Shown: in pieces, positions 3,756 to 60,328 of the stretch
Layout: every line of letters begins with the position of its first letter
Numbering within the stretch: the stretch's first letter is position 1
Assembly (NCBI GenBank): GCA_021927905.1
Contig: BLLK01000040.1
Span: 558,001-622,000, forward strand
Source: Chaetoceros tenuissimus
Lineage: Eukaryota > Bacillariophyta > Thalassiosirophyceae > Chaetocerotales > Chaetocerotaceae
Reading direction: 5' to 3'
Length of the DNA stretch: 64,000 bases
The notes under the pieces: generated by a model
Told to the model about the DNA's origin: nothing
Seen by the model: the letters and a program-made list of their open reading frames with translations, nothing else
The model's database searches: none
Position numbers and translations under genes: made by a program

Positions 3756-4502
3756 AGCTTGCTAATATGAGGATGCGTGTGTCTGTCAAATCCATGAATG
3801 TTGAAGTGGAAGTATAACATGTGCATCCAATGGAGATAGTGAGCCAAAGAAGCTAGGAGCATTATGCTTTAGTTGAAGGCAGGAGAGTAACATCCAAGCT
3901 CAAGAATATCAGAACTCTTTACAACAGAGTGACGAGGGAGATGAAGAGGGTTGCAAGGATGGTAATAAAAGAAGTAAGCCATTAAGAGAGTCCCAGAAAA
4001 CAGCAACAAACGACAAGATCCCTTGCACCAACAAGAGAACTGGAAGACCTTCTTCAGCCCAAAAGGTTGTAAATTGTTTGGATATGGAGACACTACTGGA
4101 TGGAACCTCCTCCAATGCCTCATGAAAAATATCTTCTTCCTCCTCTGAATTAATGTCATCAATATCACAATTCTCCTCTGGACTAGATGATAGTGCATCA
4201 AAAAAGAATTGTGAACTGTAAGAGTAGAGGGCAAGGGAGTTTACTTTATCAGAAATCTCACTAATCTCACTTGTTCATTGCAGTTGAGACTTGTCTCCTC
4301 CAAGCATGATACTCCATCAACATGCACTCCATCCAGTAAACTGGAAGCTTCAGTCTCAATCAAAATTCCCAGCCAGGACATCATCAGGAGAAATAGAAGG
4401 TGGATAAGTGATCAAATGCTGCCATACAAGTGCAGGTAGAGAGTACTGAGACTCTGTAGCAATAGGACAGTCAAGGGACGCAAAAACAAACTCCAATTGA
4501 AC
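3756..4502. other. Unassigned stretch between recombinase fragment and copia relic
   Basis: Short open segments exist on both strands, for example a minus-strand stretch at 3869-4234 and a plus-strand Ser-rich stretch near 4080-4230. None resembles a family I know. It is probably the rest of the recombinase-carrying insertion or decayed copia sequence. Confidence 0.3.
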
Positions 4503-5490: not shown

Positions 5491-7176
5491 CTACTACAAT
5501 CCCAGCAAGATTTGCCACCTATGTTCCAACTATGAAAACAAAGCTAGCTGTGCTAGAGAAAACCAAGAGAATCTGACATTCATATTTTTCATATAATCCT
5601 AACTACAGGATTTTATGAAATCTTATAAGCTGCTTATTACATCTCAAAGCTCAATGTTGCCACAAAAATAAAGGTAGCAAATTGTGCAAGCTAGGGAAAA
5701 TCAGGAATCCCAAACTGGAAGCTCAATGTTGCCACAAAAACTAAATGTTACCACAAAAAAAAAGGTAGCTGTGCTAGGAAAAAGGAGGAATGCTGAATCT
5801 GGAAGCTTAATGTTTCCAGAAAAAAGAAGCTGGAGGAGGACAAAAGAAAATTTTGACCTTTATATTTTTCATATTATCCTAATTACAGGTTTTTACAACC
5901 AATGTTCCAGGATTCAGATGCTCAAATGATGCCACAAAAACAAATAAGCAAATGAGTCCCACGGGACTGAGCTATTCCTTTATTCCTTCATTTTTCAAAT
6001 AAATTGATTTCAACAGAAATGAACTGCTACTAGTAACTGTAATCATATGATTCTTCAACAGAAACGAACTGACAAAAGGAAATTATGTTTTAATTGATTC
6101 CTGACCATTTTGGTTCTTGAAACAATTGGGTCTTGCATTGAACATAACATTTTGGTAATCCTAAGGAATTTATGATCATATTTTCAATCCCATATGAGTC
6201 CCATTTCCCCCCTTGGATATTGCAGAAAGAGGTGCTAAGTGTGGCCACATAAATATTCACAAAGTTTACAGTATTTTCTGAAATATTCCCTGAATAATAG
6301 CCATGCCCAGGTTTTCAGCCCGTTTTTTGCAAGAAACCACCGTGATGGCGGAAGTTAGCCTTTGTGCAATTATTGCTAAATATGACATATCATTGTTCGT
6401 AGACATCACTAACATATTAGTATGATGGTAGTGTCCAATTCATAACAAATACATAACACTCAATGCTTTTCTATATATAGAGAGACTATATGTGTGAGTA
6501 CTTTGGTAATATTTGTTGATTTTGAATGACATTCAGTTATCCTATTATCACTTAAATCACCAAAAATGAGCCAAATGAGGTACCTTAATGACTCTGTAAC
6601 TCTATGTTTCACTCAATGTTAGACCCAAATTTTGCTACAGATGTAAAGAAATAGCTCTCAGAGACTCCAATCATGGCTCAATAGTCTCCTCTACAAGACT
6701 AAGAGTCTCTACTCAAGGTGCACCTTATCTAATATTTTCTGATTTCAGTCTTGGTTTTCTGCACTTTGAATGGCTTGGAAAGTATCTAGATCAAAAACCT
6801 ATCAGGCGACTAATGAAAAAATCTGGTGATTGGGTCAAACTAAAAATATATCTATATCAAATATTTCCACAAAACAATCCCACAGACTACTTTCATTCAT
6901 ATTATTGATCAATGATGCTATACAAATGTTTGTTTCAATTTATTTTTTCATGATTTATTTTATCGCCAATTGGGTCATTTTGGGTCATTTTTGTCAGTTT
7001 TCAGTGTAGTATGGTAGTGATAAAATGATTGAAAAAAAGTTTTTCCAAGAAATAAATACATAGAAGTATACTATTTATATAAAGGAAAAAGGTATATGTG
7101 ATATATAGATTAAAAATTTTGATATTCATATACTTGGTATTTTGTTGCTCAACTAGTTAGTGTTTTTTGCGCGTAA
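5491..7176. other. AT-rich intergenic stretch with small degenerate repeats
   Basis: No gene is visible. The elements CTCAATGTTGCCACAAAAA and TTTCATAT-ATCCTAA-TACAGG each recur between 5575 and 5930, suggesting a small imperfect tandem duplication. The stretch 6248-6297 resembles 32865-32915, immediately left of the segmental duplicate, so about 880 bp at 6300-7176 may be an insertion absent from the second copy. Confidence 0.4.
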
Positions 7177-9366
7177 AAAAGAATAGACGGTTATAAAACC
7201 AGTACTGATGATTTTATTCATAATTTAAGAACTACCATATAGATCTCTGGGTGTCATTGGTAAAGTGTCAAACATAATTTACTAATACAATGCTATTGAG
7301 GTGGTTTCTAAGCAAATGGGCCATTTGAAGTTTTCCACTGTATTTGACCCAGTGTGCAAAGTATTTCTTCCTGTTGTTTTCAGTCTCCATAGTGACTTCA
7401 TCTCTGGCTGCTCTCCACAACTTCTCTTTGATAACATGCCTAAGATAAGTCAAATATAAATCTTTAATTTGCCTTTTACTACAGGATATTTCAGATTATA
7501 ATAGTATTTGGGATTTCTTTTCTTTGCTTGAGAGGAGCTCAGTTGGACATATTTGGTATTACTCTCAATGTGTTGAGGTTTTAATGCCAAAGAGGAGGGA
7601 CAAGTGTCTGATATAGTGAGCGGAGATCCAATGGTTATAATGGACAGGGGTTTGGACTCATAACCCCAACCAACACATCCTTGCCAATAAGAAATTGGAA
7701 TTACACATACACATCTACCATAGCTGACCTAATTACACATAATTACCTTATCTATCTATCTGGTAAATTGTATCACACACTCTCTTTACAGGAGATGAGT
7801 TGGGCACTGATAAGGATTGCATAGGATAAGGATCGCGTAGTTGTTGTAATTCATGCTCTTTATGGTCTCAAATCAAGTGCTCTACAATTTTGTAATCATC
7901 TTGATGCAGCACTTGGTAACAAACTTGGATTCAAATCCTGTCTTGCTGATCCTGACTTATGGTACAAGGTGTGTATTGATTCCAATGGCAATGAATATTA
8001 TGCTTACATCTTCATGTATGTTGAGGACCTACTGATTATAGACAAGAATCTGAAGAGGTTCATGGAGCAAATTCAAGGTGATTTCACTGTTAAGAAAAAG
8101 AGTATCAGCCCACCTGATAGATACTTGGGAGCTGATATGAGAAAGGTTGAAGATGATGGTACCAAGCCATTTTGGACAATGAGCTCTAACTCTTATTTCA
8201 AGGAGAGTGGTTTGAAGTACAACAAGAACCTCTCTGACCCAAATAGCAGACCAAAGCAACCATTTACTACTGCATCTTACAGACCAGAGCTTGATACTTC
8301 TGAAGAATGTACTGAAGACCAAGTTACTCTTTTTCAGAATTTAATTGCTATATTGTGATGGACAGTGGAGCTTGGTAGAATCCATATTGGATAGGAGGTA
8401 TCAGTTTTGTCAAGATATTTAGTTTTGCCTAGGACTGGTCACCTCTTGCAGGCTATTCATGTTTTCAAGTTTCTTGATATTCACAAGGATACCGAATTGG
8501 CTTTCAGACCTGATTTACCCTTCAGACCTGATTTACCAAATCTGGATTTCAATTATGACAAAGTCAATTAGCAGACTGAATTTATGAAGAAAGCTTACCC
8601 TGATGCCGTTGAAGATTTACCTCCAAATGCACCTACTCCAAGAGTGAAACCTTTATCTATGTATGTATTTGTGGACAGAGATCATGCTGGTGATAAGGTA
8701 ACAAGGAGATCTTAGACCAGTATCTTATTGTATTTGAATTCTGCTCCAATCGTCTGCTATTCTAAGAGACAGGCTACTGTTGAATCATCTACTTTTGGAT
8801 CTGAATTTGTTGCACTTCTTGTTGCATCTGAATTGATCATATCTCTGAGATATAAGCTTCGTATGATGGGAGTTCCAATTGAGGGTCTGACTCATATTTT
8901 TGTGATAAAGAGGCTATTTACAAGAATTCTTCTATTGCTCATTCAACATTGAAGAAGAAACATAATTCTATTTGTTTTCATCAAGTACAAGAATTTGTGG
9001 CTGCTGGTATTTGAGTTGTATACAAGGTCAACTGTGCTGATAATTTATCTGACATTCTAACAAAGTCATTACCTGCTCATATAAGTAAGAGATTACAATC
9101 CTTAATCATGTATGTCCAAAACTAACATTGTGATGCAAATTATTGAAATTTAAATGAGGAGAGTGAGAAAATCCCACTTTTAGGTTGGTGTTAGGATAGA
9201 GAACAAAGCTATCTAAGTCGAAAACCAATGACAATGGACGTCAAATCAATCGTATATAGTGACAACAACTCATATCACACCAATTGTTTGAAATCACTAC
9301 AATTTAGAATAAACCCTATAATTTAGACTTTTGAATATGTTTTACTTTAGTCTAACAGATTAACAG
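7177..9366. repeat. Segmental duplication, copy 1 (partner 32925-35123)
   Basis: The block matches 32925-35123 nearly base for base. Both copies contain the same degenerate copia 3' pol with the same nonsense changes, the same TG to TT change at the LTR start, and the same nested LTR insertion at the same site. Shared damage and a shared insertion point argue for duplication of a chromosome segment and against two independent transpositions. The copies differ by small indels, for example extra sequence near 33180-33210 in copy 2. Confidence 0.9.
7793..9125 (+). pseudogene. Degenerate copia reverse transcriptase/RNase H (copy 1)
   Basis: This matches the RT and RNase H part of the better-preserved element (50307-51955). 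The catalytic YVDD box reads YVEDLLI here, so the first catalytic Asp is lost, and the LDKAIKNLKAKL segment is deleted. Recognisable parts are HALYGLKSSALQF in broken frame, PPDRYLGAD, SKRQATVESSTFGSEFVAL and the end HNLSDILTKSL-like stretch near 9030-9070. Stops near 8356, 8391, 8569 and 8714 destroy it. It is followed by a polypurine tract, GAGGAGAGTGAGAAAA, and the 3' LTR at 9178. The 5' half of the element is missing. Confidence 0.88.
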
Positions 9367-10237
9367 TCTCTTTTGGTTTTAACTCATTTAAACCAATTGG
9401 GTAAAGTGTGAATTATCATGGAGCAATTTATTCATTGCACCATTGTCATTGTGGTTATCTTTTCCTTGCTGAAAGAAAGAGAGCAGCCAAAAGACAAAGA
9501 AACTCAAGTTATCATGAACAATCCACTTTTGGAACGTGAACATGATGCAACTTAAAGTCAAATGAATGATCCACTTGCGGAATGACAGCCTGAAGTAACT
9601 CAAAACCAAATGTACGATCCACTTGCAGAACGTCAACATGAAATTATTCCAAATCAAGTGAATGATCCACTCGCAGAATTTTGTCCAGAAGAAATCCACC
9701 AAGAAATCAACCAAGAAATCCACCAAGAAATCCACCAAGAAATCAACTGTAATCCAGAATCTAGAAGCAATCAATCAGAAATCAACTGTAATCCAGAATC
9801 CAGAAGCAAATAACAAGAATCCAGAAGCCATGAATCAATCAATTCAGTTTTATCCCAATGAGAAAGGGGAGTTTAAAACTCTTATTCATGGGGAGTCATG
9901 CAAATTGAAGAAATCAATCTTTTCTTTTAAGGAGATACTCTCACTTATTCCAAGAACTGCGTTAACAACAGGTTTAGAATCTCTTTAATGACAAAGTGCA
10001 GCAAATGAAACTCAGACTTCATACTATAACTAAGGAGCTTTTGGTTCACTCCATAGATTCCAAGGAGTGTTAGGATAGAGAACAAAGCTATCTAAGTTGA
10101 AAACCAATGACAACGGACGTCAAATCAATCGTATATAGTGACAACAACTCATATCACACCAATCGTTTGAAATCACTACAATTTAGAATAAACCTTATAA
10201 TTTAAACTTTTGAATATGTTTTACTTTAGTCTTAACA
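9189..10237 (+). mobile_element. Small gag-only LTR retrotransposon (complete, 1049 bp)
   Basis: It has LTRs at 9189-9357 and 10068-10237 (169 and 170 bp), both starting TGTTAGGATAGAG and ending TAACA, and the 5-bp TSD GTTGG. A primer-binding-like run GATTAACAGTCTC follows the 5' LTR and a short purine tract (AAGGAG) precedes the 3' LTR. The interior has no reverse transcriptase or integrase. An ORF starts at 9418 (MEQFIHC), and after one or two stops the product has repeated units around NDPLAERQ and then Gln/Glu-rich HQEI and NQEI repeats. The primer site, ORF repeats and the phrase NPEAMNQ are shared with the larger element at 57122-59716. It must be mobilised in trans. Confidence 0.85.
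9418..9987 (+). pseudogene. Degenerate repeat-rich gag-like ORF of the small LTR element
   Basis: The reading frame opens at ATG 9418 and is stopped near 9555 and again near 9587. It contains about four diverged units of the type (N/Y)DPLAERQ, then Gln/Glu-rich repeats (EIHQEINQEIHQEI) built from a 12-bp DNA repeat between 9686 and 9750. A frame change near 9810 leads into NPEAMNQSIQFYPNEKGEFK, ending at 9988. The repeats match the start of the internal region of the 57122-59716 element. No zinc knuckle, protease or polymerase motif is visible. Function in RNA packaging is inferred only from its position in an LTR element. Confidence 0.6.
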
Positions 10238-11566: not shown

Positions 11567-12430
11567 TCAAACAGAGAAATCAGTGTGTGCAGACATTTTC
11601 AATATACATATAAGATTCATGCTATAATACTGCTTTATTGATAAAGGTAAATAAAAATGTTTTACATGAGTACATTGCTTAATTGAGCTGTGTGGTATGT
11701 TTTGCATGTAGAAAACATCATAGAATGGAAATGGGTCACTGTGAACCAAATTCTCCTCAAAACCAGCAAAATACATGAGAGGGATATGGAGACACTTCAT
11801 CAATCAAAGGTAAGGAATTAATGGCATTGGATTCTTCTTAGCTTGAACACTCCAAGCTGCTGATGGAGAGAAGAACAAATCATGATCATCATCATCATCA
11901 GAGGAGTCATCTTTAGAATCTTCACTCCCCAAAGAATCAGAGTCTTCAAATTTCTTCTTGGTCCTAGCAGGATTGGCAAAGTCAACCTTTTTAGATGATG
12001 CTGCACTCTCAATTGGAGAAGGTAAAGATCTGAAGTCAAATGTCTTTGGACTCCTAGGACTAGAAACCTTAGACAACTCAAGTTTTTTGATCCACTTTGA
12101 ATGCTCAAGAGAAGAGTAAGCAGTTGAACCAAAATACATCTTCACTGAGTCTAATAAGCCCGTCCAATTGAGACTGAATGCTGTAAAACTTTGAACAATT
12201 TGCTCAATTCCATTTGATGAGAGACCATTGCAAAGTAGATTCTCCCTCAACTCAGCCTCTCTGATGAGGACTAGATTTGATAAATTTGAAACTTGAAGGT
12301 CTTGGATCACCATTTTTGATTTGTCCTTGGTAAGACAAATAAGTTCAAGAATATCTAAAACACTCTGAGTTCCAGTTGGACCTTTAATCTTCCAAAGTCC
12401 AAACAATGTACACATTGTTGTGGAAATCAC
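11567..12430 (-). pseudogene. Gag-like ORF of a minus-strand LTR element
   Basis: A 208-codon ORF (12430-11804, MISTTMCTLFGLW) is followed in the same frame, after one stop, by 78 more open codons to 11567. The N-terminal two thirds look helical. The C-terminal part is Ser-rich then strongly acidic, with KDDSSDDDDDHDLF, and resembles in style the acidic ORF at 58237-59010. It lies just inside an LTR-like sequence (12519-12688) whose reverse complement matches the LTRs of the small gag-only family, including a primer-like GATTAGCAGTCTTG. No protease or polymerase is present. A 3' LTR was not found, so the element looks truncated. Confidence 0.55.
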
Positions 12431-12518
12431 TGAGTAAGAACTTGATAATTAAATAATTGAACCTCTTCTCACCTAATCTCAAGTTGGTCCTTCAGAAACA
12501 AAACAAGACTGCTAATCT

Positions 12519-12688
12519 GCTAAGTCTAAACTCAATCAAATTGATAAGTTAGAACTCTTTTATTATTATGATTACATCTAAATTGTAATGATTTGGTACA
12601 CTTGTGCTTTAGGAATTGTACTCACTATACACATTTGATTTGGCATCCATCTTCATTGGTTTCTTGACTTAGATAGCTTTTTTCTCTT
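12519..12688 (-). repeat. LTR of the gag-only family, minus strand
   Basis: The reverse complement carries CTATCTAAGTC-A-GAAACCAATGA, TGTATAGTGA and a TTTAGACTTAGCA end. It aligns with the LTR at 9189-9357 and with the solo LTR at 60152-60328. A primer-binding-like GATTAGCAGTCTTGTTTT follows in minus-strand sense, so this is the 5' LTR of the gag-like ORF at 12430. The TG end is mutated (about 12688). Confidence 0.7.
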
Positions 12689-12699
12689 TCCTTATACTG

Positions 12700-13648: not shown

Positions 13649-14474
13649 GGTCATGTAAGAACACCTGATTTTTGTGAGTTTTTGCTGCAAAGTGAAAATC
13701 TAATTTCGGCTCCAATCGACACGCAATAAAATACTAATACCTTTCTAAAAGCTCTTTTTACACTTGTTTCAAAACTGTAATCGACGAGAGCGCGCATGCT
13801 TTCTGAGTTGAGAAAGCAACCTCTAAAGTAGCTTACTTTGGTTATGTCACAGTTTGGTTGCAACCATATTTCTCGCCACAAAATGAGTTGATGAACGCAA
13901 GAAGTTACAAATAAATTCTTGAAGTTATTGTGTGAATGAATATGTAATTCATTTTGCCATAGAGTAAGAGCAAGTATTTCTATCGATTGCCTCTTTGGAG
14001 GGATTTTCTTTGATTCTTTTTTGTACGTATGGACTGTACCAACAATGGCACAATTTCTGTCATTGGTCTGTGAAATTGAGTGAATTTGAAGCCAATTTCG
14101 AATCATGAATTGACCATGTCTTCTATACACTCAAATAAATCATTTTGAAGTCGACCTACAACAATTATAACTACATTAATCTTTACAAAACTATTGAAAT
14201 GAACATTATGTAACTTCTTGCTATTGTCAACTCCTTTTATGGCAAGAAATATGGTTGCGACTCAACACCAACTATTTGAAAAAGTGACAATCTCATCTTA
14301 CGAAAAGCTAAATTTCTTGACTGAGAAAGCTTCCGAGATTTTTTTGAGTGCAGTTTTGAAACAAGCGTAAACAGAGCTTTGAGAAAGGTATTAGTATTTT
14401 ATTGCGCGTCGATTGGAGCCGAAATTAGATTTTCACTTTGCAGCACAAAATCGATATTCTTACACAACTCTGCT
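13649..14474. mobile_element. Foldback element copy 1 (imperfect inverted arms about 270 bp)
   Basis: The left arm 13649-13925 and the right arm 14202-14474 are inverted repeats. Both contain TGCAAAGTGAAAATCTAATT, TTCGGCTCCAATCGAC, AATACCTTTCT and TTGTTTCAAAACTG in opposite orientation. Two other copies exist: 35126-35862 (right arm truncated) and a central piece at 56119-56327 in the other orientation. A 159-codon minus-strand frame (14130-13651) crosses the centre and left arm. No recognisable transposase or clear TSD was seen. Confidence 0.75.
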
Positions 14475-23592: not shown

Positions 23593-24251
23593 TTGGAAAT
23601 GTTGAAAATGAATCTTAAGCTGATAGTCAATTCTTTTTTGACTGCTGGGAATATGACTATGATGAACCTAATCCTGTACTTGAATCTGATGAAGATAAAG
23701 AGGATGACAAATCCAATAACAATTATGGATGATATCATTCAGGCAGTGCAGGAAAGTCTTGAATATGAGGAGAATCCTGATGGTGCTGATTCAACATGGT
23801 TGATGTATCATCTTCAGGAAAATGATTGTTTCATTTGTGAATGTCACATGGAGAAAGTATGGATAAATGGTGGAAGTGGAAAGAGTAGAGTCTTACTACA
23901 AGAAATTGTACAAAATTGCATTTCGTGATGCACCTTTAGCTTGGAATACTGAGTTGCTGCAAGAATTAAAGAATATCATGATTGAAAAAGATGGACTAGC
24001 AGCACAAGATGTGGATCGACTTTTGTATTTCAATTCAAAATTATTCTGTGATTGAAGGTGGAGCAACTATATTGGAGAGTGATGCACCTTTAGCTTGGAA
24101 TACTGAGTTGCTGCAAGAATTAAAGAATATCATGATTGAAAAAGATGGACTAGCAGCACAAGATGTGGATCGACTTTTGTATTTCAATTCAAAATTATTC
24201 TGTGATTGTGGGTGGAGCAACTATATTGGAGACTTCATGCAGTCTTCATGA
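23593..24251 (+). pseudogene. Broken ORF of unknown family with a 154-bp tandem duplication
   Basis: Frames at 23593-23928, 23867-24055 and 24009-24251 overlap in different phases. The repeated peptide DAPLAWNTELLQELKNIMIE followed by KDGLAAQDVDRLLYFNSKLF appears twice, from units 23927-24080 and 24081-24234. The acidic region ESDEDKEDDKSNNN precedes it in another frame, near 23680. I do not recognise the family. The next ORF (24307-24819) may be its continuation. Confidence 0.4.
23927..24234 (+). repeat. Near-identical 154-bp tandem duplication
   Basis: The two units are 23927-24080 and 24081-24234. They differ only in about three bases near the end (TGAAGGTGG against TGTGGGTGG, and the junction). 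154 is not a multiple of three, so the duplication shifts the frame of any ORF across it. The near identity means it is recent. Confidence 0.9.
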
Positions 24252-32793: not shown

Positions 32794-33586
32794 TGAGAGA
32801 AAGTATCTCTCCCAATTTTATCAAAACAGAATCGCGCTCGGTTACAAATATATAGTATGCAATAAATATTCACCAAGTCTACAGTATTTTCTGAAATATT
32901 CCCGGAAGAATATGCTATTCGTCGAAAAGAATAGACGGTTATAAAACCAGTACTGATGATTTTATTCATAATTTAAGAACTACCATATAGATCTCTGGGT
33001 GTCATTGGTAAAGTGTCAAACATAATTTCGTAATACAATGCTATTGAGGTGGTTTCTAAGCAAATGGACCATTTGAAGTTTTCCACTGTATTTGACCCTG
33101 TGTGCAAAGTATTTCTTCCTGTTGTTTTCAGTCTCCATAGTGACTTCATCTCTGGCTGCTCTCCACAACTTCTCTTTGAAGGTTAACAATAAATTCAGTC
33201 AAGAATATAACATGCCTAAGAATAGTCAAATATAAATCTTTAATTTGCCTTTTACTACAGGATATTTCAGATTATAATAGTATTTGGGATTTCTTTTCTT
33301 TGCTTGAGAGGAGCTCAGTTGGACATATTTGGTATATCCATGTTAGACAATATTACTCTCAATGTGTTGAGGTTTTGATGCCAAAGAGGAGGGACAAGTG
33401 TCTGATATAGTGAAAAGAGATCCAATGGTTATAATGGACAGGGGTTTGGACTCATAACCCCAACCAACAAATCCTTGCCAATAAGAAATTGGAATTACAC
33501 ATACACATCTATCATAGCTGACCTAATTACACATAATTACCTTATCTATCTATCTGGTATATTGTATCACACACTCTCTTTACAGG

Positions 33587-34870
33587 AGATGAGTTGCGTA
33601 GGATAAGGATCGCGTAGTTGTTGTAATTCATGCTCTTTATGGTCTCAAATCAAGTGCTCTACAATTTTGTAATCATCTTGATGCAACACTTGGTAACAAA
33701 CTTGGATTCAAATCCTGTCTTGCTGATCCTGACTTATGGTACAAGGTGTGTATTGATTCCAATGGCAATGAATATTATGCTTACATCTTCATGTATGTTG
33801 AGGACCTACTGATTATAGACAAGAATCTGAAGAGGTTCATGGAGCAAATTCAAGGTGATTTCACTGTTAAGAAAAAGAGTATCAGCCCACCTGATAGATA
33901 CTTGGGAGCTGATATGAGAAAGGTTGAAGATGATGGTACCAAGCCATTTTGGACAATGAGCTCTAACTCTTATTTCAAGGAGAGTGGTTTGAAGTACAAC
34001 AAGAACCTCTCTGACCCAAATAGCAGACCAAAGCAACCATTTACTACTGCATCTTACAGACCAGAGCTTGATACTTCTGAAGAATGTACTGATGACCAAG
34101 TTACTCTTTTTCAGAATTTAATTGGTATATTGTGATTGGCAGTGGAGCTTGGTAGAATCCATATTGGATACAAGGTAGTTTTGCCTAGGACTGGTCACCT
34201 CTTGCAGGCTATTCATGTTTTCAAGTTTCTTGATATTCACAAGGATACCGAATTGGCTTTCAGACCTGATTTACCCTTCAGACCTGATTTACCAAATCTG
34301 GATTTCGATTATGACAAAGTCAATTAGCAGACTGAATTTATGAAGAAAGCTTACCCTGATACTTTTGAAGATTTACCTCCAAATGCACCTACTCCAAGAG
34401 TGAAACCTTTATCTATGTATGTATTTGTGGACAGAGATCATGCTGGTGATAAGGTAACAAGGAGATCTTAGACCAGTATTTGAATTCTGCTCCAATCATC
34501 TGCTATTCTAAGAGACAGGCTACTGTTGAATCATCTACTTTTGGATCTGAATTTGTTGCACTTCTTATTGCATCTGAATTGATCATATCTCTGAGATATA
34601 AGCTTCGTATGATGGGAGTTCCAATTGAGGGTCTGACTCATATTTTTGTGATAAAGAGGCTATTTACAAGAATTCTTCTATTGCTCATTTAACATTGAAG
34701 AAGAAACATAATTCTATTTGTTTTCATCAAGTACAAGAATGTGTGGCTGCTGGTATTTGAGTTGTACACAAGGTCAACTGTGCTGATAATTTATCTGACA
34801 TTCTAACAAAGTTATTACCTGCTCATATAAGTAAGAGATTACAATCCTTAATCATGTATGTCCGAAACTA
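33587..34870 (+). pseudogene. Degenerate copia RT/RNase H (copy 2)
   Basis: This is the duplicate of 7793-9125. It keeps the YVEDLLI catalytic-site change and the same deletion before KESGLKYNKNL. It has a few private changes, such as a different stop pattern after FQNLIGIL and the loss of the segment that gives SILLYLNS in copy 1. Recognisable motifs are PPDRYLGAD, SKRQATVESSTFGSEFVAL and the C-terminal LSDILTK-like stretch. It is inactive. Confidence 0.88.
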
Positions 34871-34944
34871 ACATTGTGATGCAAATTATTGAAATTGAAA
34901 TTTGAACATTTGAGGAGAGTGAGAAAATCCCACTTTTAGGTTGG

Positions 34945-35114
34945 TGTTAGGATAGAGAACAAAGCTATCTAAGTCAAAAACCAATGACAATGGACGTCAA
35001 ATCAATCGTATATAGTGACAACAACACATATCACACCAATCGTTTGAAATCACTACAATTTAGAATAAACCTTATAATTTAGACTTTTGAATACGTTTTA
35101 CTTTAGTCTTAACA
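34945..35114 (+). repeat. Partial gag-only element: LTR only
   Basis: The LTR begins TGTTAGGATAGAG and ends TCTTAACA, the same as the LTRs at 9189-9357 and 10068-10237. It is followed by the primer-like GATTAACAG and then by foldback-element sequence. The 5' flank GGTTGG matches the insertion point seen in copy 1. There is no second LTR. Confidence 0.8.
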
Positions 35115-35125
35115 GATTAACAGCA

Positions 35126-35862
35126 GTGTCACGTAAGAATACAATTTTTTGTGAGTTTTTCCTGCAAAGTGAAAATGCTAATTTCGGCTCCAATCGACTG
35201 ACAATAAAATAGTAATACCTTTCTAAAAGCTCTTTTCACGCTTGTTTCAAAACTGCAGTCGGAAAAATCTCGGAAGCTTTCTGAGTCAAGAAAGTAACCT
35301 CTAAAGTAGCTTTCTTCGGTTATCTCGCCGTTTAATCGAAACCATATTTCTCGCTACAAAATGAGTTGACGATTCTGAGAAATTACAAATATATTCTTGA
35401 AGTGTTTGTCTAAATAAATATGTAATTAGTTTAGCCATAGAATCATTATAATATTGATATTGCAATAGCATTCTCAACCATGTTTTCTTTGATTCTTTAT
35501 CGTACGTACAGACTGTACCAACAATGACACAATCTCCGTCATTGGTCTGTAAAATCGAGTGAATTTTGAGCCAATTTTGAATCATAAATCGACCATGTTC
35601 ACTATACACTCAAATAAATTATTCTACAGTCAACCTACAACTAATGTAAATACACGGATCTTTCGAAAACTATTCAAATGAACAGTATGTAATTTGTTGG
35701 AATCATTAACTCATTTTGTAGCTAGAAATATGGTTTCGATTCAACACCAAATATTTGAAAAAATGACAATCTCGTCATACTAAAAGCTAAATTTCTAGAC
35801 TCAGAAAGCTTCCAAGATTTTTTCGACTGCAGTTTTGAAACAAGCAGAAAAAGAGCTTTTAG
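35126..35862. mobile_element. Foldback element copy 2, right arm truncated
   Basis: The left arm starts GTCACGTAAGAA and aligns with 13649 onward. The right arm is present up to CAAGCAGAAAAAGAGCTTTT at 35862, where gypsy sequence starts. Conserved internal phrases include TTTCTCGCTACAAAATGAG and TCAAAACTGCAGTCG in inverted pairs. A minus-strand frame (35609-35301) resembles in its first part the one in copy 1 (MY--HG-FMI-NWL-IHSI-QTND). No transposase motif is seen. Confidence 0.75.
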
Positions 35863-38800
35863 CCGATTATAAATATCCATATCAGAGTATCTACGGCAGG
35901 GTCCTCCACAATCTGTGCAGTGACCTAGAATAAAATAAAAATTACGTCTGATTGATAATCTGTCTTGAGTAACACCTTTCTGGATTGTCACTGTACCGTT
36001 GTTATGAATGGCGATGATCTGGTATGGATCACTGTTCTTCTTAGAAAACTTTCTAAGGATACAATTAGTCGTTTTAAGAACTCTGTCTCCGACTTTATAT
36101 TGATGGGAGATGCGTGCAGCATTCTCTCTTTCATTATCGCGAGCAATCTGCTTGTGTTTTCTTTCGGTAATCGCTTTCCAGTCGCTTGCCTTGGATAAAT
36201 TAAACATCATATCCCTTCCAAATACAAGTTGTGCAGGCGTCGCTTGCAATGTTGAGTGGTATGAAGCTCGTACTGCCCATGCAACTGAACTTAAGATAGG
36301 TCCCCAAGGATGTATGTAATCAAATTCATAGCTATCTAGCTGTTTTGTCTTTATCATATTTTGTACTACTTGATGAACTCTTTCAACAGGTGAGTTACCT
36401 TGCGGGTTCTCCGCTTTGGTAGGTCTTGGCTTTATGTCAAAATCTTTGAGCAAAGTCATGAAATGTAATTTAAATTCAGAGCTGTTGTCACAAACGACTT
36501 ATATCTACTCAGCCATGTTTGTTCGAATATCAAGCTAATTCTAGCTGATGTTTTGTCAATAAAATCATCTTTATCTTCTTTGACTTTGTCAATACTATAA
36601 TATGGTACTTGTGCAATCTCGAACCATCCGGTTGCGGGATCCAACATCGTCATACAAGTGAGCTTCAGCTCTACTTCTTTAATTTCACCGCCAGGCTGTA
36701 TCTGCTTAGCTGTTACTGAATATGGACCAATCAGGTCGACATGTACCGTCCTCCATGGTACTAATTCCTTTATTGTTTTCGCAGGTATAATTCCATATCT
36801 GCGCTTCTTTTTATATTGTTGACAGACTTCACAAGTCTTTACGAAATCTTTAGCTTGATTGGAAAGTCCTTTCCAATAGCATGTTTCTTTTATCGTATTA
36901 CCTAGACGATCTCCTCCAGGGTGATTTAAGTAATGATGATACCAATTGAGAGTGCTCTCTCTTAAGGTTTGTGGAACATATACTTTGTCCTTGTACATTA
37001 TGAGCTCGACTCCATCGAGTTCTTTGATTTTGTATTCAGAATCCTTTTCATCTAAAAGTTTCTTTATTTTGGAATTTCTTTTCTTCAATTCTTTTTGTTG
37101 TTCTTCACGGAGTAACTTCTTCTCCAATGGGAAATCAGCTTGAATACTTCGTACTCGTCTGTTTGCAAATAATTCTTGTATTTTAGTGTCGGTGGACTCA
37201 ATCTCTTCCTCCTCAACATTGTTGCTTCTCAAGCGACTAAGTGTATCAGCTACGATATTGTCAACACCGGCAATATGTATAATATTAGGTCCAAACTCTT
37301 CAAGTAGGAGTCTCCAGCGCATAACTCTTTGAGACTCACTCAAGGTTGCTTCATAAACTAAATTTTTGTGATCTGAGTAGACATTGATCTCATATCCAAA
37401 CAGAATATTTCTAAATTGTTTCAAACATTCAACAATAGAGAGAAGTTCTTTCTCGGTTGTGGTACGATTTCGATAGTTGTCGACTGAAGAATGCAATAGG
37501 CTTTCCATTTTGGCTTATTACAGCACCTAGCTGTTTATCAGATGCATCTGTATGTATATCGAATGGTTTACTCCAGTCGGGGTAGGTTAAGAAGACTTCT
37601 TCAGTTACCATTTGTTTAAGTTGGATGAAGGCATCATCCATTTCTTCTGTCCAAGTAATTTTCATTTTACCTTTCTTACCAGCTGCAGCATCGATGAGTG
37701 GTGATAGGATATGAGAGCGTCTTCTCCACATATCTCTGTAAAATTGTATCATACCGATAAGAGATTTCATCTCTTTCGCTGTTTGAGGTTTATGAAGATC
37801 GACAATTCCTTGTACCTTCTTTGGGTCTGGTCTCAGACCTTCTTTTGAAATTATGTAACCTAGATAAGGAATCTCCTGTAATCCAAAGCTGCATTTTGAA
37901 GCATTGACTTTCAGTCCTGCATTTTCGAATCGCTGAAAGATCTCTTCCAGTTGTGATAAGTGTTCATCGAAAGTGCCTGTTCCGATGCAAAGAATGTCAT
38001 CAATGTAAGTGCGTACACCTTCAATGTCGCCAATCAAGTCATAAATCTTTGACTGAAATACATCACCTGAGACAACCATTCCCATAGGTAAGCAAGTATA
38101 TCTGAATTTACCAAATTCAGTTACAATAGTAGTAATGTCTTTACTACATTCCGCAAGTGGGATTATATAATATCCCATGTTGAGATCCAATGCTGTCGCA
38201 AAGGTGAATCCCTCTAATTGTTGTAAAGTATCCGCAATTCTTGGGATTGGAAAAGGCTTCCGAACTACCTGTCCATTAACCTTCCAAAAATCTGTCACAA
38301 ATCTAGCAGTTCCTTCCTTCTTTGGGATAATAAATACGGGAGTCCCCCATTCTGATTCATGTACTACTTCTAGTACTCCTATTTTTACGAGCCGTTCTAG
38401 CTCCTTCTTATAGGTTTCTTTGTTGATTTTTGGAACTGGGTACCATCTGCAATTAACCGCTTTTGCTCCTTCTTTTAATTGTATTTTTACTGGATCCGTT
38501 TTCCAACGTCCAAGTGTTCCATCGAACAATGACTCAAATTTCTTTAAGGTTTTGAGAAGCTTCCGCTTCTGTTCTCTATTTAAAGATGTAGCACTCGCTA
38601 CAACTTCTTCTAAGTCTGCTTTTTCATAATTTGCGTCCAAAATCTTTGTAACACGTTCTGTTTCTTCTTGTGTAGCCTTCAGCTCTACTGATCTGAGAAA
38701 TGTAGCTCGCATTTCTTGTCTAGTTGGATGTTTGGCTTCCCAGATGTCACTGAAGCTTTTCATAGGAACTAACACATCGTTCCATTTGATTGTTTTATCG

Positions 38801-38874
38801 CTATGTCTTAAGTCGATTTTGAGCTTGTTCAGCAGATCTCTGCCAATGATCATATCATATCCTATCCCTTCTGG
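35863..38874 (-). pseudogene. Ty3/gypsy pol: protease end, RT, RNase H and integrase
   Basis: The frame from 38853 starts MIIGRDLLNKLKIDL, the end of a retropepsin, and reads into reverse transcriptase with FVTDFWKVNGQVVRKPFPIP (residue 185 onward), ALDLNMGYY, and the catalytic TYIDDILCIG at 282-291. It continues to RNase H with DIHTDASDKQLGAV. A frameshift near 37480 leads to EKELLSIVECLKQFRNILF, then integrase with HVDLIGPYSV. Another frameshift near 36470 leads to the second-Asp region CDNSSEFK, NPQGNSPVERVHQ and a C-terminal GDRVLKTTNCILRKF. It would copy the element RNA and insert the cDNA. The 3' end and 3' LTR are lost where foldback sequence begins at 35862. Two frameshifts make it inactive, although the rest is well preserved. 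Confidence 0.9.
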
Positions 38875-45470: not shown

Positions 45471-47161
45471 ATGGACGATACTCCAACTTTTACTGCATTT
45501 GTGCAGAATGTTCTGGGTGTAACTATTGCAAGAGCTTGCACAGAACTGGTTGCATATATTCCAACATTTAGAAGATTAATGACAATCTCAGAAGATGATA
45601 TTGATAACTTCATCAAGCAAGTCCATTCTTCCAACTCAGGTCGAACAGCTGCACAGCGTATTGTCTATGGACCTTCTTTGGCTGACAATCTCAAAGCCTT
45701 ATCCTTACTCTAAAAGATAGAGCAAATTGTAACGCTCTATATGATGCTGCAGGTCTTGCTGCTTTGAATCAAGTTGAATTAACTCTCATGAAGAACTACC
45801 ATGATCAAGCGCGTCAGGATAAAGCCAATGATGAATCTGTGTCTCTTCCAGAAATTGACGTGCCCAAATTTACCACTGAAAACTATGATGATTTTATGGC
45901 AAAATTCCTTACAGTTGTTTCTCGTACCAAGGGAGTACATGGCGTATCCATTGATTATCTTGTTCGTGAAGCTGATGGGAATTTCAATGACATCCATGCA
46001 AATCGCAAATTGAAACTTAAAGCATGCTTATCCAGAAGAGGTCCGAAATTCCAGGAGGATTCTCAAACGCTCTATGGTTTGTATCTTCAGTATATTGGAA
46101 CAACAGGACATGGAGCGAACATTGTGAAACAATTTCAACCTAGAAGACAGGGATTCAATCTGCACTTCGCTTTTGTTAATCACTTTGCAAATGCAACACA
46201 TCTTCAAAATAAAGCAGCTCAGGCTGAAACAGATCTGACCAAGCTCAATTACTCTGGTGACAAACTTTGGTTCAAGATGGAAGATTATTATAACCGTATG
46301 ACACAATGTTTCAATGATCTCGCTAATGGTGGTCCTCAATATGTCCTGAATGATCACCAGAAGATCCAGCGATTCTGCCAAGGACTTAAGAATGACACAG
46401 CAATCAGATATCACGTTGATGCAAAGCAGGCATGGGATGCCATCCAAGGACCAAAAGATTTCGATACCTATTACAATTTGTTTTCATCAAAGCTTCAACA
46501 ATACCGTACCTTGAGAGGGGATGGCTCCCATACTGACAATCGTCGTATTAATCAGATGCATACTGGAGGAAGAGGTAGATCATGTCATGGTAGACGCTTT
46601 GGAAGAGGAGGTGGAAGAGGTCGTGGACGTGGTAGAGGAAGAGGTAGGAACTCTTACCAAAATAACAACCCTTACCACAACCCTCCAGGCCTTCCAAATT
46701 TTACAGCAGAAGCAAGAAACTATCCTCAGGAAATGTTTCAGAAAATGTCCAAGATGCAAAAGGCTGCTGTACAACAGGCCAAAATTGGCAACGGATGGAA
46801 AGATGGCCGTACTCCACCTGATGGTTTCACTGTTAATGGCGATGGTTATGCTATTCCTTCTCCGAGTATTGTAGCTGCCATCAATTCACACATGCAAATT
46901 AGACAGTTCCAGCAAGTTCAGACTCCTGGTGCTGGTACGCTTCCACCACCACCGCCACCAACACCTCCTCCAGCTGCTCCTGGATCAACTCCTCCAATTC
47001 CTGGTACTATCACCACTAATAATGCAGGCCAAGCTTTTGGCTCGTCTGCATCAAGGGGAGGTACTGGTGATGCTGCAAGTGTTATCTCTACTGTGAATGA
47101 ACGATCATATCAAGGCCATGTGTACGATGCAAACGGTAATAGAATTGTTATACTGTCATGA
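45471..47161 (+). pseudogene. Copia gag with a one-base frameshift
   Basis: The ATG at 45471 gives MDDTPTFTAFVQNVLGVTIA. One T is missing near 45706: the other copy at about 855-885 has the extra base and reads ALSFTLKDR. The frame then continues from about 45716 through the capsid region, with VHGVSIDYLVREADGNFND, GANIVKQFQPRRQGFNLHF and FDTYYNLFSSKLQQYRTL. An RG-rich nucleic-acid binding tract (RGGGRGRGRGRGRGRN) replaces a zinc knuckle. The C-terminal end is a proline run then SVISTVNERSYQGHVYDANG. It ends at TGA 47161, inside the hairpin. About 560 residues if restored. Confidence 0.85.
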
Positions 47162-47712
47162 TCCTGTGTAGCTAGGTAGTTCATGTTGGCTAGTCACCAT
47201 GGACATTATTCGTCCACTTGGAGTGCATGTTCCACCATGTGAGTGGAACATTACACTCACCATGATATATACCTCACAATCTACTTAATACAACCTTTAT
47301 CATATCTCTCTATTACATTATATCTTAGTACTAGTGGAGATTCCAGGTTGACGTAGATCTGTCGGCATCTCAGGGCTTCATTTTTGGATCATTTTTGGAT
47401 AGATCTGTCGGCATCTCAGGGCTTCATTTTTGGATCGTTTTGCGAGGAAGTGCTTTCGTTGAAAGCTTGAAAGGGCGTCATAACCTGAGATGCCGACAGA
47501 TCTACGTCAACCTGGAATCTCCACTAGTACTAAGATATAATGTAATAGAGAGATATGATAAAGGTTGTATTAAGTAGATTGTGAGGTATGTATCATGGTG
47601 AGTGTAATGTTCCACTCACATGGTGGAACATGCACTCCAAGTGGACGAATAATGTCCATGGTGACTAGCCAACATGAACTACCTAGCTACACAGGATCAT
47701 GACAGTATAACA
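47146..47712. mobile_element. Long hairpin (foldback) insertion at the gag/pol junction
   Basis: Left arm 47146-47375 and right arm 47484-47712 are inverted copies of about 229 bp, differing at only a few places (for example ATATATACC against ATACATACC). The ends read TGTTATACTGTCATGATCC and its complement. The loop (about 108 bp) contains an almost exact 41-42-bp direct repeat starting TAGATCTGTCGGCATCTCAG at 47358 and 47399. It separates gag from pol and supplies the gag stop. No TSD was found and no ORF of note lies inside. Confidence 0.85.
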
Positions 47713-56118: not shown

Positions 56119-56327
56119 AATACAATCCAAAGAGGCAATCAATAGAAATACTTGCTTTTACTCTAAACTAATTTCATTTTCATTCACACATTAACTTCAA
56201 GAATATATTTGTAACTTCTTGCATTTGCCAACTCATTTTGTGGCAAGAAATATGGTTGCAATCAAACTGTGACATAACCAAAGTAAGCTATTTTAGAGGT
56301 TACTTTCTTGACTCAGAAAGCTTCCAA
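56119..56327. mobile_element. Foldback element copy 3 (partial, inverted orientation)
   Basis: This matches the centre and part of the left arm of 13649-14474, but in the opposite orientation. Shared words are GGCAAGAAATATGGTTG and TGACATAACCAAAGTAAGCT. Translated, it keeps the same frame as the copy-1 minus ORF over SIEILA, LILW-EIWLQ and CDITKVSYFRG. It ends at 56327 where unrelated sequence starts. Confidence 0.7.
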
Positions 56328-56449
56328 GTTCACTGCAAGGACTGGCCTGAATATGATCCACTCTATGCCTCTGCCAGTATTCCCATCAGAGATTCTAAAC
56401 CAAGTAGCTCTATTTCCCACAAAATAATGTATTGGCTAAGAAAACACCA

Positions 56450-57121
56450 GTGTATCTTCATCATCATCGAACTTCTTCCTCTTGTTACATCTATCTGTAG
56501 TATTGGAAGGAGTGGAAAGATTCATTATGCTCTTGGGAATAGCATTAAAGTGAAAGGTCCCATCCTTAAAATTGGACAAAATTCTATTGAAGTTGAGTTG
56601 TCTACAAATATAATCTAAACTCTCTGGGAAGAGGGGGACTTGGTCAAAGAAGTTCTTGAGTTTTCTGAAGAAAGCTGCCAGGATCAGGATAACTCAATTC
56701 TCATTCTTGTTGCAGTAAGTGGACCACTTTCTGATTCATCCTCAACTTGCTTGCTAGGTCATCTAGCTTTCTTGCTACAAAACAGTCGTCAAAGAGAAAA
56801 TGAAGAACCTTACTCATGGTTTCCACATTTTCAATTAACTACATCATGTTCTTGGGCAAGATGATTGAAGTCTTAGTCAACTTGTCAATAAATTCACTGT
56901 CTAGGCCAGTATTCTTCAACTTCAGATCAATGATGCATAAGATCTCTACACTTTCAACCCATTCATCAAAGTTATATCTCTGAAAAAGCAGCAGAGAGAT
57001 ACCCCAAGGAAATTCACTTGATTTCCATTTGATCTACTGTTGGAGGCTCAGGTAGGTGCTATGGATTCCATTCCTCCTCAAGTATGCTTCATTCCTCAAC
57101 TTCACAATCAGGAATCCTCCA
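56450..57121 (-). pseudogene. Degenerate coding block, copy A (first part)
   Basis: This region matches 60965-61625 (copy B) along its length, but carries more stops. It looks like the 3' part of a minus-strand coding sequence and continues at 59717 after the insertion of the gag-only element at 57122-59716. I cannot name the product. Both copies have the same layout, so the duplication is older than the insertion. Confidence 0.6.
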
Positions 57122-57243
57122 TGTTAGTGGTCAATCAAAGTTGAAGTCTACATCACAAGCACAAGCACAATTGGAAGAACGATTGAAGATCTTAGAGTAA
57201 TTTTAACCTTATAATTTTAACTTGAATTCATTTGAGTTTAGCA
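57122..57243 (+). repeat. 5' LTR of the gag-only element
   Basis: It is 122 bp long and differs from the 3' LTR at only a few positions, for example CACAATTGGAAGAACG against CACGACTGGAAGAATG. The few differences suggest a relatively recent insertion. Confidence 0.9.
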
Positions 57244-57294
57244 GATTAACAGTCTCGTGAGTCTCTTTATTCTAATTGAGTTAAAGGAGTTATC

Positions 57295-57890
57295 ATGGAC
57301 GATCCACCAGCGGAACGTCAGCCAAATGTAACACTCACTTATCACAAATATAGCTGATGACATGCTGATCCTATGACATTGCTGACACCTCTCATATCTC
57401 CTCGTTTTATTATCATCTCTTGTGCTGAATGCATGAGTGAAGTATAGATAACATAATAATCTCCTTATCTCTTTTTTTACCTGTTACATGGCACCAAATA
57501 TTCTACATCCCACAACCACCGATCTCTGTCATTCTCATATATTCCTCACTGTCACAGTCATTGCTTATATCTGTTACACAAATCAAAATGATGAGGCAGC
57601 AATCCACCAAGAAATCTGCCAAGAAAGCAACCAAGATGTCAACCAAGAAGTCAACCAAGAAATCCACCAAGAAATCCACCAGAATCCAGAAGAAATCCAT
57701 TAAGAAATCAACCAGATTCCAGAAGCAATCAACCAGAATCCAGAAGCCATGAATCAACCTAATTCACCACCACCAATCCAGACCAATTTCAATCCAGCTG
57801 AAGGACCTAATCAAGTGTCATTTAGCCAGAGTAATCCATTGAATGCCAGTCAGCTTTCGAATCAAAGTATGAAGAAAAGTATTGCAAGGT
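57295..57890 (+). pseudogene. N-terminal repeat ORF of the gag-only element
   Basis: The ATG at 57295 (MDDPPAERQPNVT) matches the NDPLAERQ repeats of the 9189 element. After a break it continues as a Gln/Glu repeat region (57600-57700) with NQEVNQEIHQEIHQNPEE, coded by a 12-bp DNA repeat. It ends with NPEAMNQPNSPP and a Ser/Asn-rich stretch to about 57890, with one stop near 57703. The repeat is expanded differently in the two elements. Confidence 0.6.
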
Positions 57891-58057
57891 GAAGATCAAC
57901 CACAAGTTTGATTGCATCGATCACAATTGCAACAGCAGGGAATCTTTGGAACATGAGTTACCTCTTTTTTCTTAGGTTCAACTATTGCAGGAGAACTTAT
58001 TACCCTTTTTGCGGCAATGTTTGCCTTACCTAGAGCAAAGGGAACATTGAAGTCCTA

Positions 58058-58240
58058 TTGGGATTGCGTGAAAACGAAGCTAGTTTCGTGCAGGAAAATT
58101 TAGCATTTGATTCAATTCAAGCATTTGCATCAGTTGATGTGAAAGGGTTATGGGACCTTCTTATGCTTTTGGGAATGTCCACTGGTCGTGCTGAAAGAAT
58201 TATGCTGCATTTTACACAAAGCATTCTCAGAAATACATGA
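58058..58240 (+). CDS. Gag-only element ORF 1 (short helical)
   Basis: A 60-codon frame with LRENEASFVQENLAFDSIQA then FASVDVKGLWDLLMLLGMST and GRAERIMLHFTQSILRNT. It looks like a helical capsid-type segment. Its stop overlaps the next start as ATGA at 58237-58240. Its own start is uncertain since coding signal extends upstream with a stop near 58047. I do not know its function. Confidence 0.4.
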   Translation: MGLRENEASFVQENLAFDSIQAFASVDVKGLWDLLMLLGMSTGRAERIMLHFTQSILRNT

Positions 58241-59010
58241 AGTCTGATGGAAGCATTGCTGACACCAACACGTTTGATGTGTTATGTTCCAAGCAAATGA
58301 CAAATCTGCCTAATATTAGTTCGATTCATCCTCAGCAAGGGGGGAGTTCAGCATTGGGTTCTCTGAAATCATCTTCTCCATTGAGTAATCCTACTGCCTT
58401 CTATTCGACCAAGCCAAAAGTGCAACAGATTTCCTTTGAAGCTGATTCAAGTTCTGATGAGGAATCAAGTGATGAAGATGATGATGATTCTTTTACAATG
58501 ACCAGTAGTAAAGGGGGGAGATATATGGAACCCAAGAAAAATATGATGCCTCAATTGGGATGCAGTAAGAGCAAAGCTGTAGCCTATAAGCGTTGTCTCT
58601 TGAACGAAATGGAAACTATTAATGCCCATCGCTTGGTTGCAACTGAGAATTGTGTTACAAAACCACGCCCCTGGATAGGAAAGAAGCATACTAAAGAAAA
58701 AAAGAAAAAGTATAAGCACCATAAGAAACGTGTCAAACTATTCAATGAGAGGAACAATGCTCTTTTAACTTATATCCAAAGTACTGCATACTGTGCAGGG
58801 CACCAGTTGAGCAACCAATTAGCAGAAATGACCTCTGGTGTGGAAGCTTTCAACTTCATTATGCAAGAATTAGATCCTATTAGGAGAGATGAGATTGCAT
58901 CAAGTAGTAATGCGCTGAAAGAATTCAATGATTACAAGCTTACGTCTGTATTGAAAGGATCATTCTCAAAGTTTGCGGTTGACTTGATGGATAGAGTTGA
59001 AGAACTATGA
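58237..59010 (+). CDS. Gag-only element ORF 2, acidic then basic
   Basis: A clean 257-codon frame starts MKSDGSIADTNTFDVLCSKQ. It has a Ser/Pro-rich start, an acidic run SSSDEESSDEDDDDSF, then a strongly basic tract KKHTKEKKKKYKHHKKRVK, then a helical C-terminal region (NALLTYIQSTAYCAGHQLSN). Acidic-basic-helical is a plausible RNA-binding gag, but there is no zinc knuckle. It starts in an ATGA overlap with ORF 1 and ends in another ATGA overlap with ORF 3. Similar acidic runs are in the minus-strand ORF at 11804-12430. Confidence 0.55.
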   Translation: MKSDGSIADTNTFDVLCSKQMTNLPNISSIHPQQGGSSALGSLKSSSPLSNPTAFYSTKPKVQQISFEADSSSDEESSDEDDDDSFTMTSSKGGRYMEPKKNMMPQLGCSKSKAVAYKRCLLNEMETINAHRLVATENCVTKPRPWIGKKHTKEKKKKYKHHKKRVKLFNERNNALLTYIQSTAYCAGHQLSNQLAEMTSGVEAFNFIMQELDPIRRDEIASSSNALKEFNDYKLTSVLKGSFSKFAVDLMDRVEEL

Positions 59011-59192
59011 CTGAACAAGATCCTTGGAAGTTGTCACTATTCAACAAGCTAACACCGGAATATAACCAAGTATTTTTGCAAGAGGACGTATTCAAGGATC
59101 TGCCATTCGAAGATTCATTAGTGAACCTACAATGTATTGCAGTTCATATTGAGAAGGAAAGTACTGGAGGTCGTGTCCATACTAGGATCTAA
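59007..59192 (+). CDS. Gag-only element ORF 3 (gag-like helix)
   Basis: The 61-codon frame begins MTEQDPWKLSLFNKLTPEYN and continues with QVFLQEDVFKDLPFEDSLVN and LQCIAVHIEKEST. The phrase about PEYN-VF and DLPFEDSLV is like the helical capsid C-terminal of many LTR gags. It begins in an ATGA overlap with ORF 2 and is in the minus-one frame to it. It may be the tail of one gag divided by frameshifts. Confidence 0.5.
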   Translation: MTEQDPWKLSLFNKLTPEYNQVFLQEDVFKDLPFEDSLVNLQCIAVHIEKESTGGRVHTRI

Positions 59193-59265
59193 AGGCATTC
59201 TGAAGGAAATTGCAGGTAACAAGGTGAATCATTTTGGTAACATTCAAAAGTAGATATTTAGTAAG

Positions 59266-59562
59266 ATGACCACTGAGGAGAAAAAGATATTTTTTGAAGC
59301 TATACAGAAATTGAGAGATGTAGGTATTGAATTCCTGGAATCCTCTAAGTCTGATGATACTGAAAAGAAAATTGAAGAGCTAGAATCCAAGATCAGGGAA
59401 CTAGAAAGCTTCCAAAAATGGGGAGTCAGTAACCCCTGAGAATGGGGAGTCTAAGCTGAAAGCAAGGAAAACTGGTAAAGCCAATGTTATGAGTATGTCC
59501 TACAAGGAAGTTCTTGAGCAGATCCCAGATGAAAAGCAGTGTAAGAAACTTGTAAACTAAAA
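59266..59562 (+). CDS. Gag-only element ORF 4, coiled coil, with a CCC-TGA frame break
   Basis: From the ATG at 59266 there are 57 codons: MTTEEKKIFFEAIQKLRDVG, then a heptad stretch EKKIEELESKIRELESF, ending NP and TGA at 59437. The plus-one frame from the same place carries on as ENGESKLKARKTGK and EVLEQIPDEKQCKKLVN to TAA at about 59560. It probably is one coiled-coil protein broken by a small indel or a shift at CCC-TGA. It lies just before the polypurine tract. Confidence 0.4.
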
Positions 59563-59594
59563 ACTTGATGCCTCCAAGCATTGATTCAGGGGAG

Positions 59595-59716
59595 TGTTAG
59601 TGGTCAATCAAAGTTGAAGTCTACATCACAAGCACAAGCACGACTGGAAGAATGATTGAAGATCTTAGAGTAATTTTAACCTTATAATTTTAACTTGAAT
59701 TCATTTGAGTTTGGCA
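59595..59716 (+). repeat. 3' LTR of the gag-only element
   Basis: It is the 122-bp partner of 57122-57243 and is followed by the TSD CTCCA. The polypurine tract TTCAGGGGAG lies just upstream. Confidence 0.9.
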
Positions 59717-60151
59717 CTCCATCAATAGTGAGGGTATCCATCAGAAAGGTTGAATTTGAAAGTCTTTCTTTGGACTTGGTCTCCACTGTTTCAGTAGCAC
59801 TTCCAAAGTTTCCGTTAGAGGTTTTGTTTCTCCAAATCCTGAATTATGTTCATTGCTTGGAAAGAATTATTCCTTTTTTCAATTGTAAGCTTTCAAGGTA
59901 CAGTTTTTTACCAAATCAGAATCGAAGGCACCAAAGTAGTGCAAAACATCAGAGTTCTCTGTAGCTCCACTCTCAATAAGTTCTGCAGTCTCATCTCTGT
60001 CCTCATTTATCTCAAGATGAAGGCTAGCAGCAATTATGATTTCCATCATCTCATCAATTGATTTTACTCCTTCAGAGGTAAATTTCTCTGAAGCTCTTTT
60101 CTAATAATGCACAAGTTTTGCAAGGTGGAAATATTTTTATTCCTGATATTC

Positions 60152-60328
60152 TTTTAAGTCTAAACTAAATTGAATTGATAAGTTAGAACTCTTTTATTAT
60201 TATGAAATATCTAAATTGTAATGATTTGGGACAAATTGTGCATTGGAAATTGTAGTCACTATACACTTTTGATTTGACGTCCATTGTCATTGGTTTCTCG
60301 ACTTAGATACTTGATCTCTTTCCTAACA
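60152..60328 (-). repeat. Solo LTR with TSD TATTC
   Basis: Its reverse complement starts TGTTAGGAAAGAGATCAA and shares ATCTAAGTCGA-AAACCAATG, ACAATGGACGTCAAATCAA and the TTTAGACTTAA end with the LTR at 9189-9357. TATTC is at 60147-60151 and 60329-60333. Copy B of the block (62040-62046) has no insertion there, which proves the event. A solo LTR is formed by recombination between two LTRs. Confidence 0.9.

Follow-up and report, generated by a model that had tools for sequence, protein, structure and literature searches.

The 64,000-nucleotide stretch of DNA analyzed here (the window; bases 558001–622000 of the 902,213-bp contig C29 in the 41.0-Mb, 68-contig genome assembly of the diatom Chaetoceros tenuissimus) carries on its forward strand a whole long terminal repeat (LTR) retrotransposon of 2,595 bp (positions 57122–59716) in which the only reading frames between the LTRs are gag-like. 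We estimate a probability of about two in three that it belongs to a family of small LTR elements that lack a polymerase gene (pol), encode a capsid-like Gag and spread via enzymes borrowed from Copia elements with the same primer-binding site (PBS). In such a cycle, a cleaved tRNA-Asn would serve as primer, particles would form, Copia polymerase would be co-packaged and Copia integrase would carry out the integration. The identical LTRs of two shortened copies, on contigs C18 and C44, bear on such putative movement in trans only indirectly.

The element is flanked by the target-site duplication (TSD) CTCCA (57117–57121 and 59717–59721) and bounded by 122-bp LTRs (57122–57243 and 59595–59716) arranged as direct repeats with 118 of 122 positions identical (four differences). 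Both LTRs have TG…CA ends, starting with TGTTAG and ending with TTAGCA (5′ LTR) or TTGGCA. The PBS (57244–57259, GATTAACAGTCTCGTG) follows the 5′ LTR immediately; its 20-base word occurs once in the window at up to three mismatches and is matched in 0 of 100 shuffles. The polypurine tract AGGGGAG (59588–59594) lies directly 5′ of the 3′ LTR. Between these borders is a gag gene (57749–59584) with an ATG at 57749, a TGA at 59582–59584 and stops and frame changes inside; its longest open piece (58237–59010, 257 aa) takes in part of the predicted capsid domain. A Pfam scan of the element's reading frames, excluding the stop-bearing frame at 59196–59555, returned neither a pol nor a gag match. The preliminary description of this DNA, made from the sequence alone, had reported the LTRs, TSD, primer site, polypurine tract and exclusively gag-like frames, all of which we recovered. 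It also called the element complete, which is true of its structure but not of its coding: the copy in the window is decayed and its gag interrupted. As in TR-GAG elements, a pair of TG…CA LTRs with a TSD and an inner-border PBS and polypurine tract is combined with no detected reverse transcriptase or integrase. Together with the predicted capsid fold, this supports the designation of a TR-GAG-like element in a diatom. The size of 2,595 bp and the gag remnant set it apart from TRIM elements, which are under about 1 kb and encode no protein.

Searching the genome with the 257-aa piece located five places, the element itself included. One (C29:693473, contig coordinates; 86% identity) retains a 3′ LTR, and a 5′ LTR was not found there; the others are at C18:161249, C29:446901 (31%) and C28:27868. 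The 31% match defines a second family with LTRs of about 177 bp, a nearly identical PBS and no pol found. In its copy at C29:446 (L016), the LTRs measure 177 and 176 bp and differ at two positions, the PBS has one change, and gag is covered by two overlapping frames of 492 and 237 aa that are out of phase with each other; this frame change may reflect mutation or may be programmed. The L016 LTR has 24 matches in the genome, which can be read as eight LTR pairs (one recognized by 52-bp pieces only and one whose 3′ LTR is split) and seven single or partial LTRs, and the 492-aa protein gave 12 matches at nine loci. Full members encode a protein of about 600–700 aa. Others have been shortened: the C18 copy (1,769 bp, TSD AAAAG, LTRs identical at 181/181) and the C32 copy (TSD GCTAT, interrupted 3′ LTR) have 238-aa open frames, that of C32 listed from a TTG, in which the capsid region is missing while the N-terminus and a short tail at the C-terminus remain. 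In the C44 copy (726 bp, LTRs identical at 179/179, TSD differing by one base between sides), the only form of TRIM size, no more than a trace of the gag tail is left. The group forms a size series by internal deletion, with lengths of 2.87, 1.77 and 0.73 kb. A TSD was looked for at C29:445499 and not found.

Four further places in the window had been assigned to the same superfamily without polymerase (9189–10237, 11567–12688, 34945–35114 and 60152–60328), and all are within the list of L016 LTR matches. The first is a 1.05-kb pol-less element on the forward strand with LTRs related to the 177-bp family, a PBS at 9358 and the TSD GTTGG. The second is a truncated reverse-strand copy of the 177-bp family (11810–12692) with an LTR (12518–12692), the PBS GATTAGCAGTCTTG and a gag fragment (11810–12457); no second LTR matched there. 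The remaining two are single LTRs, one partial (34945–35078, forward strand, a 76% relative of the 177-bp family) and one of that family at 93% (60155–60328, reverse strand). The term superfamily overstates the grouping, which resolves into two related families plus shortened forms, likely Copia-dependent.

The preliminary description held that a pol-bearing relative, with pol at the corresponding place, would mark the element as a mere deletion derivative; none was found by gag protein, LTR or PBS across the 41 Mb, in searches that score best candidates only and thus do not make the absence absolute. Among the best candidates scored, the genome gave 133 RVT_2 and 60 RT_RNaseH_2 matches; none is inside the 13 gag-only members checked (a C37 copy was not among them), and the nearest is 4.7 kb away on the opposite strand. 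Likewise, no Pfam pol domain was present among 15 profile-search proteins, which were best candidates chosen with length limits that exclude long fused polyproteins. Searches with both gag-only LTRs also found no pol-bearing partner. A single LTR fragment was near an RVT_2 match (49 bp at C62:31909, some 0.8 kb beyond a stop-bearing RVT_2), and we rejected it as a partner after finding no LTR pair holding the fragment within 7.5 kb of sequence.

The PBS links the gag-only elements to Copia. The complement of its first 14 bases is present in five tRNA genes of the genome, all of which (5/5) ARAGORN identified as tRNA-Asn(GUU). Pairing with nucleotides 25–40 of this tRNA, its anticodon arm, comprises 14 Watson–Crick pairs followed by one G–U and one G–C, which, judged from sequence, makes the PBS a half-tRNA primer site of the Copia type. 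With its 3′ end at nucleotide 40, inside the anticodon arm, such a primer would require cleavage of the tRNA. Half-tRNA or anticodon-loop priming has been described for copia, Ty5 and fungal Copia elements (PMC5371799, PMC10886601). The 13-mer GATTAACAGTCTC occurs at 12 genome sites, compared to one for the reversed control: the five tRNA-Asn genes, five members of the gag-only group (the C37 site placed there by leader similarity only) and two sites, one on C34 and one on C54, that precede RVT_2 by about 4.5 kb. Near-identical primer words also follow other LTR-like ends at C21:1111765, C29:373665 and C54:46478 (L075–L077), the first two of these ends being nearly the same; within 9 kb of each of the three, neither RVT_2 nor RT_RNaseH_2 was matched.

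The C34 site belongs to a full Copia element with identical 191-bp LTRs, the TSD ATAGA, the PBS next to the LTR and frames for a 596-aa gag and a 1,420-aa pol with RVT_2. A further copy on C22 has a PBS changed at one base, and a relative on C54 has a 73%-similar stretch extending to the PBS. Hence, gag-only and Copia elements share a PBS. These elements have the primer site expected of the autonomous partner proposed in the preliminary description, but their ends differ: beyond the PBS, the C34 and C54 LTRs have no similarity worth naming to the gag-only LTRs, and HHalign detected no relation between the C34 and gag-only gags. Because neither the compared LTRs nor the C34 gag is detectably related, we can only infer dependence on the C34, C54 and C22 Copia elements.

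Structure prediction suggests a retrovirus-type capsid fold for the gag-only protein. The model of a relative (pLDDT 65.5, moderate confidence; an earlier one with pLDDT 53 was not used) matches retroelement capsids, with Drosophila Copia as the best match. A Pfam gag match is absent from the gag-only proteins and likewise from the gag of the pol-bearing C34 Copia, and a gag-like Copia frame at window position 45764 has only a sub-cutoff match (E 0.011). When three Copia gags were compared with the capsid region by HHalign, the alignments covered 16–17 residues each and were not significant (E 0.07–0.14). Within these non-significant alignments, two Copia gags (C29:622–629 kb and window 45764) aligned an N(Y/I)P..F.KM motif in the same way. 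Searches of phage and Protein Data Bank (PDB) sequences gave no match.

The same proteins are predicted to carry membrane-like helices near the N-terminus. Stretches of 19 residues with a mean hydropathy of 1.76–2.36 were present in the N-terminal part of L016, L006, L015, L061 and L071, a set that spans both gag-only families as well as the 238-aa forms. By the same measure, three Copia gags or gag-like frames of this genome peak at 0.8–1.3, making the predicted segments unusual. Weighing against the prediction, the truncated fragment at window position 11810 peaks at 1.3, and three sequences that contain the N-terminus (P0011, P0012 and P0015) fall below the 1.6 cut.

Purifying selection on gag is apparent in most comparisons. 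We calculated Nei–Gojobori dN/dS ratios for seven comparisons, skipping codons with gaps or stops and omitting L012 (stop in frame) from the alignments, and applied Fisher tests to five of them. The ratio was about 0.4 in five of the seven: window versus C29:693473 (0.39 over 209 codons, p 0.002; 0.44 over 56 codons, p 0.06), C18:161 versus C29:693 (0.36, no Fisher test; 0.38, p 0.003) and C29:446 versus the window 11810 fragment (0.41, p 0.0004). It was 0.70 for C18:161 versus the window copy (no Fisher test) and 0.71 for the 238-aa forms (p 0.35, not significant); differences between codon positions reached p < 0.05 in one of five pairs. Gag stops at the 3′ LTR in the window copy as well as in C29:693473; the ancestor of the two therefore probably lacked pol already, and the constraint on gag likely acted on a pol-less lineage.

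Gag-only elements may retain gag through selfish gain, through helper parasitism or as a leftover. The last would apply if a recent Copia family with the same gag and LTRs had lost pol in some copies, the full-length form being extinct or outside the assembly. We consider such a deletion derivative rather unlikely. The group does shorten by internal deletion, and an Arabidopsis TR-GAG has a known, highly similar autonomous relative (PMC8704663). However, searches by gag, LTR and PBS and the 15 profile-search proteins yielded no pol, two families only 31% identical in gag both end it near the LTR, and selection on gag is seen between pol-less copies. It is also improbable that the element is a pure passenger, with a helper Copia giving both gag and pol and its own protein dispensable for spread. 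The LTR-identical C18 and C44 copies moved despite the lost capsid region and the shortened frame has no significant selection, yet full-length gag is under selection in five of seven comparisons and shortened forms could use the gag of full-length members.

Borrowing from Copia, which we favor, is given a concrete candidate helper by the shared half-tRNA-Asn primer. A helper from Gypsy or another LTR family is doubtful: the PBS does occur at the three other LTR-like ends, with neither polymerase profile within 9 kb, and the LTR start TGTTAG resembles the LTR of the Copia at C29:622–629 kb, whose PBS differs. Anticodon-loop priming, by contrast, has been described for Copia-superfamily elements (PMC5371799, PMC10886601), and the predicted best fold match is a Copia capsid. 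A Gypsy partner was rejected, as none of the RT_RNaseH_2 matches among the candidates scored lies near the PBS sites. Tentatively, the group may even be an old and independent lineage of satellite retroelements that encode their own capsid and hijack Copia reverse transcriptase via the half-tRNA-Asn primer, with a membrane-anchored Gag kept under selection in at least two pol-less families and in relatives in public data. If so, it would parallel, among retrotransposons, a satellite virus that builds its own shell. What bears on the retention of gag is that the gag-only state is common to two diverged families, with gag selection between pol-less copies and no pol-bearing relative found in the genome.

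Drosophila copia, whose capsid is the best match to the predicted fold of the diatom relative, is primed by initiator tRNA-Met and, like yeast Ty5, encodes pol. Both resemble the diatom element in half-tRNA or anticodon-loop priming, and Ty5 uses initiator tRNA-Met rather than tRNA-Asn (PMC5371799). TR-GAG elements are a recognized class in plants (PMC6022998, PMC8704663), described as LTR elements with one gag ORF and no reverse transcriptase or integrase (PMC6022998). The preliminary description knew them from plants; gag-only Copia families (Copia-N1_Ec32 and Copia-11_Ec32) are, however, also described in Ectocarpus, a brown alga and stramenopile (PMC12477816). The diatom element differs from plant TR-GAGs in the predicted membrane-spanning segments of its Gag and its half-tRNA-Asn PBS; furthermore, for the plant TR-GAG AT5TE33540, a potentially autonomous relative of high similarity is known (PMC8704663), and none was found here. 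The Ectocarpus families likewise have a single gag-like ORF in a Copia-type LTR element, but theirs has at least partial homology to the gag of fully autonomous elements (PMC12477816), whereas none was detected in the diatom's own genome. TRIM and Helenus elements are also short and pol-less, and most fungal Helenus share an anticodon-loop PBS with Copia elements, as here (PMC10886601); full diatom members differ in encoding a protein of about 600–700 aa. Diatom CoDi elements are Copia-type LTR elements with TG/CA ends in 23 of 26 families and CCHC fingers in some groups only; unlike the gag-only elements, they are classified by reverse transcriptase domains and so are pol-bearing (PMC2806351). 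The word non-autonomous has no occurrence in the available text of that paper. The main text of the C. tenuissimus genome paper gives retroelement percentages without the words gag, Copia or LTR (PMC8613185). Titles and abstract beginnings of the openly accessible literature on TR-GAG, TRIM and diatom or stramenopile gag or LTR elements revealed no diatom gag-only element. As far as these searches go, this is a known kind of element in a variant not found described for diatoms.

Several other repeats accompany these elements. The mini element at window 9189–10237 seemingly lies within the beginning of a different Copia LTR, with flanks that resemble the word TGTTAGGTTGGTAGATTTTGAG split by the TSD GTTGG. 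Repeated blocks on C29 (window 7172–9353 and 32920–35109; C29:733684 and C29:458105) place a single C34-type Copia LTR near a pol-less mini element or its LTR, which suggests segmental duplication. On C18, L015 contains an 832-bp direct repeat (3580–4411 and 9169–10000, 99.5% identical) on either side of a gag-only fragment and a MYND-like gene (domain named by eye); this repeat around the C18:161 kb fragment was set aside, as the inspected edge has no TG start. Elsewhere in the window, a perfect 229-nt inverted repeat (47146–47374 and 47484–47712, 109-nt loop) lies in a Copia element, between its gag-like ORF and its pol ORF, and a Gypsy-type RVT_1 and RNase H fragment lies at 37429–38850 on the reverse strand. 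A family of inverted-repeat arms (13676–14452, 35173–35862 and 56163–56328; 72–90% complementary) possibly represents foldback or terminal inverted repeat elements. Finally, positions 23925–24232 hold two head-to-tail copies of 154 bp that are 99% identical.
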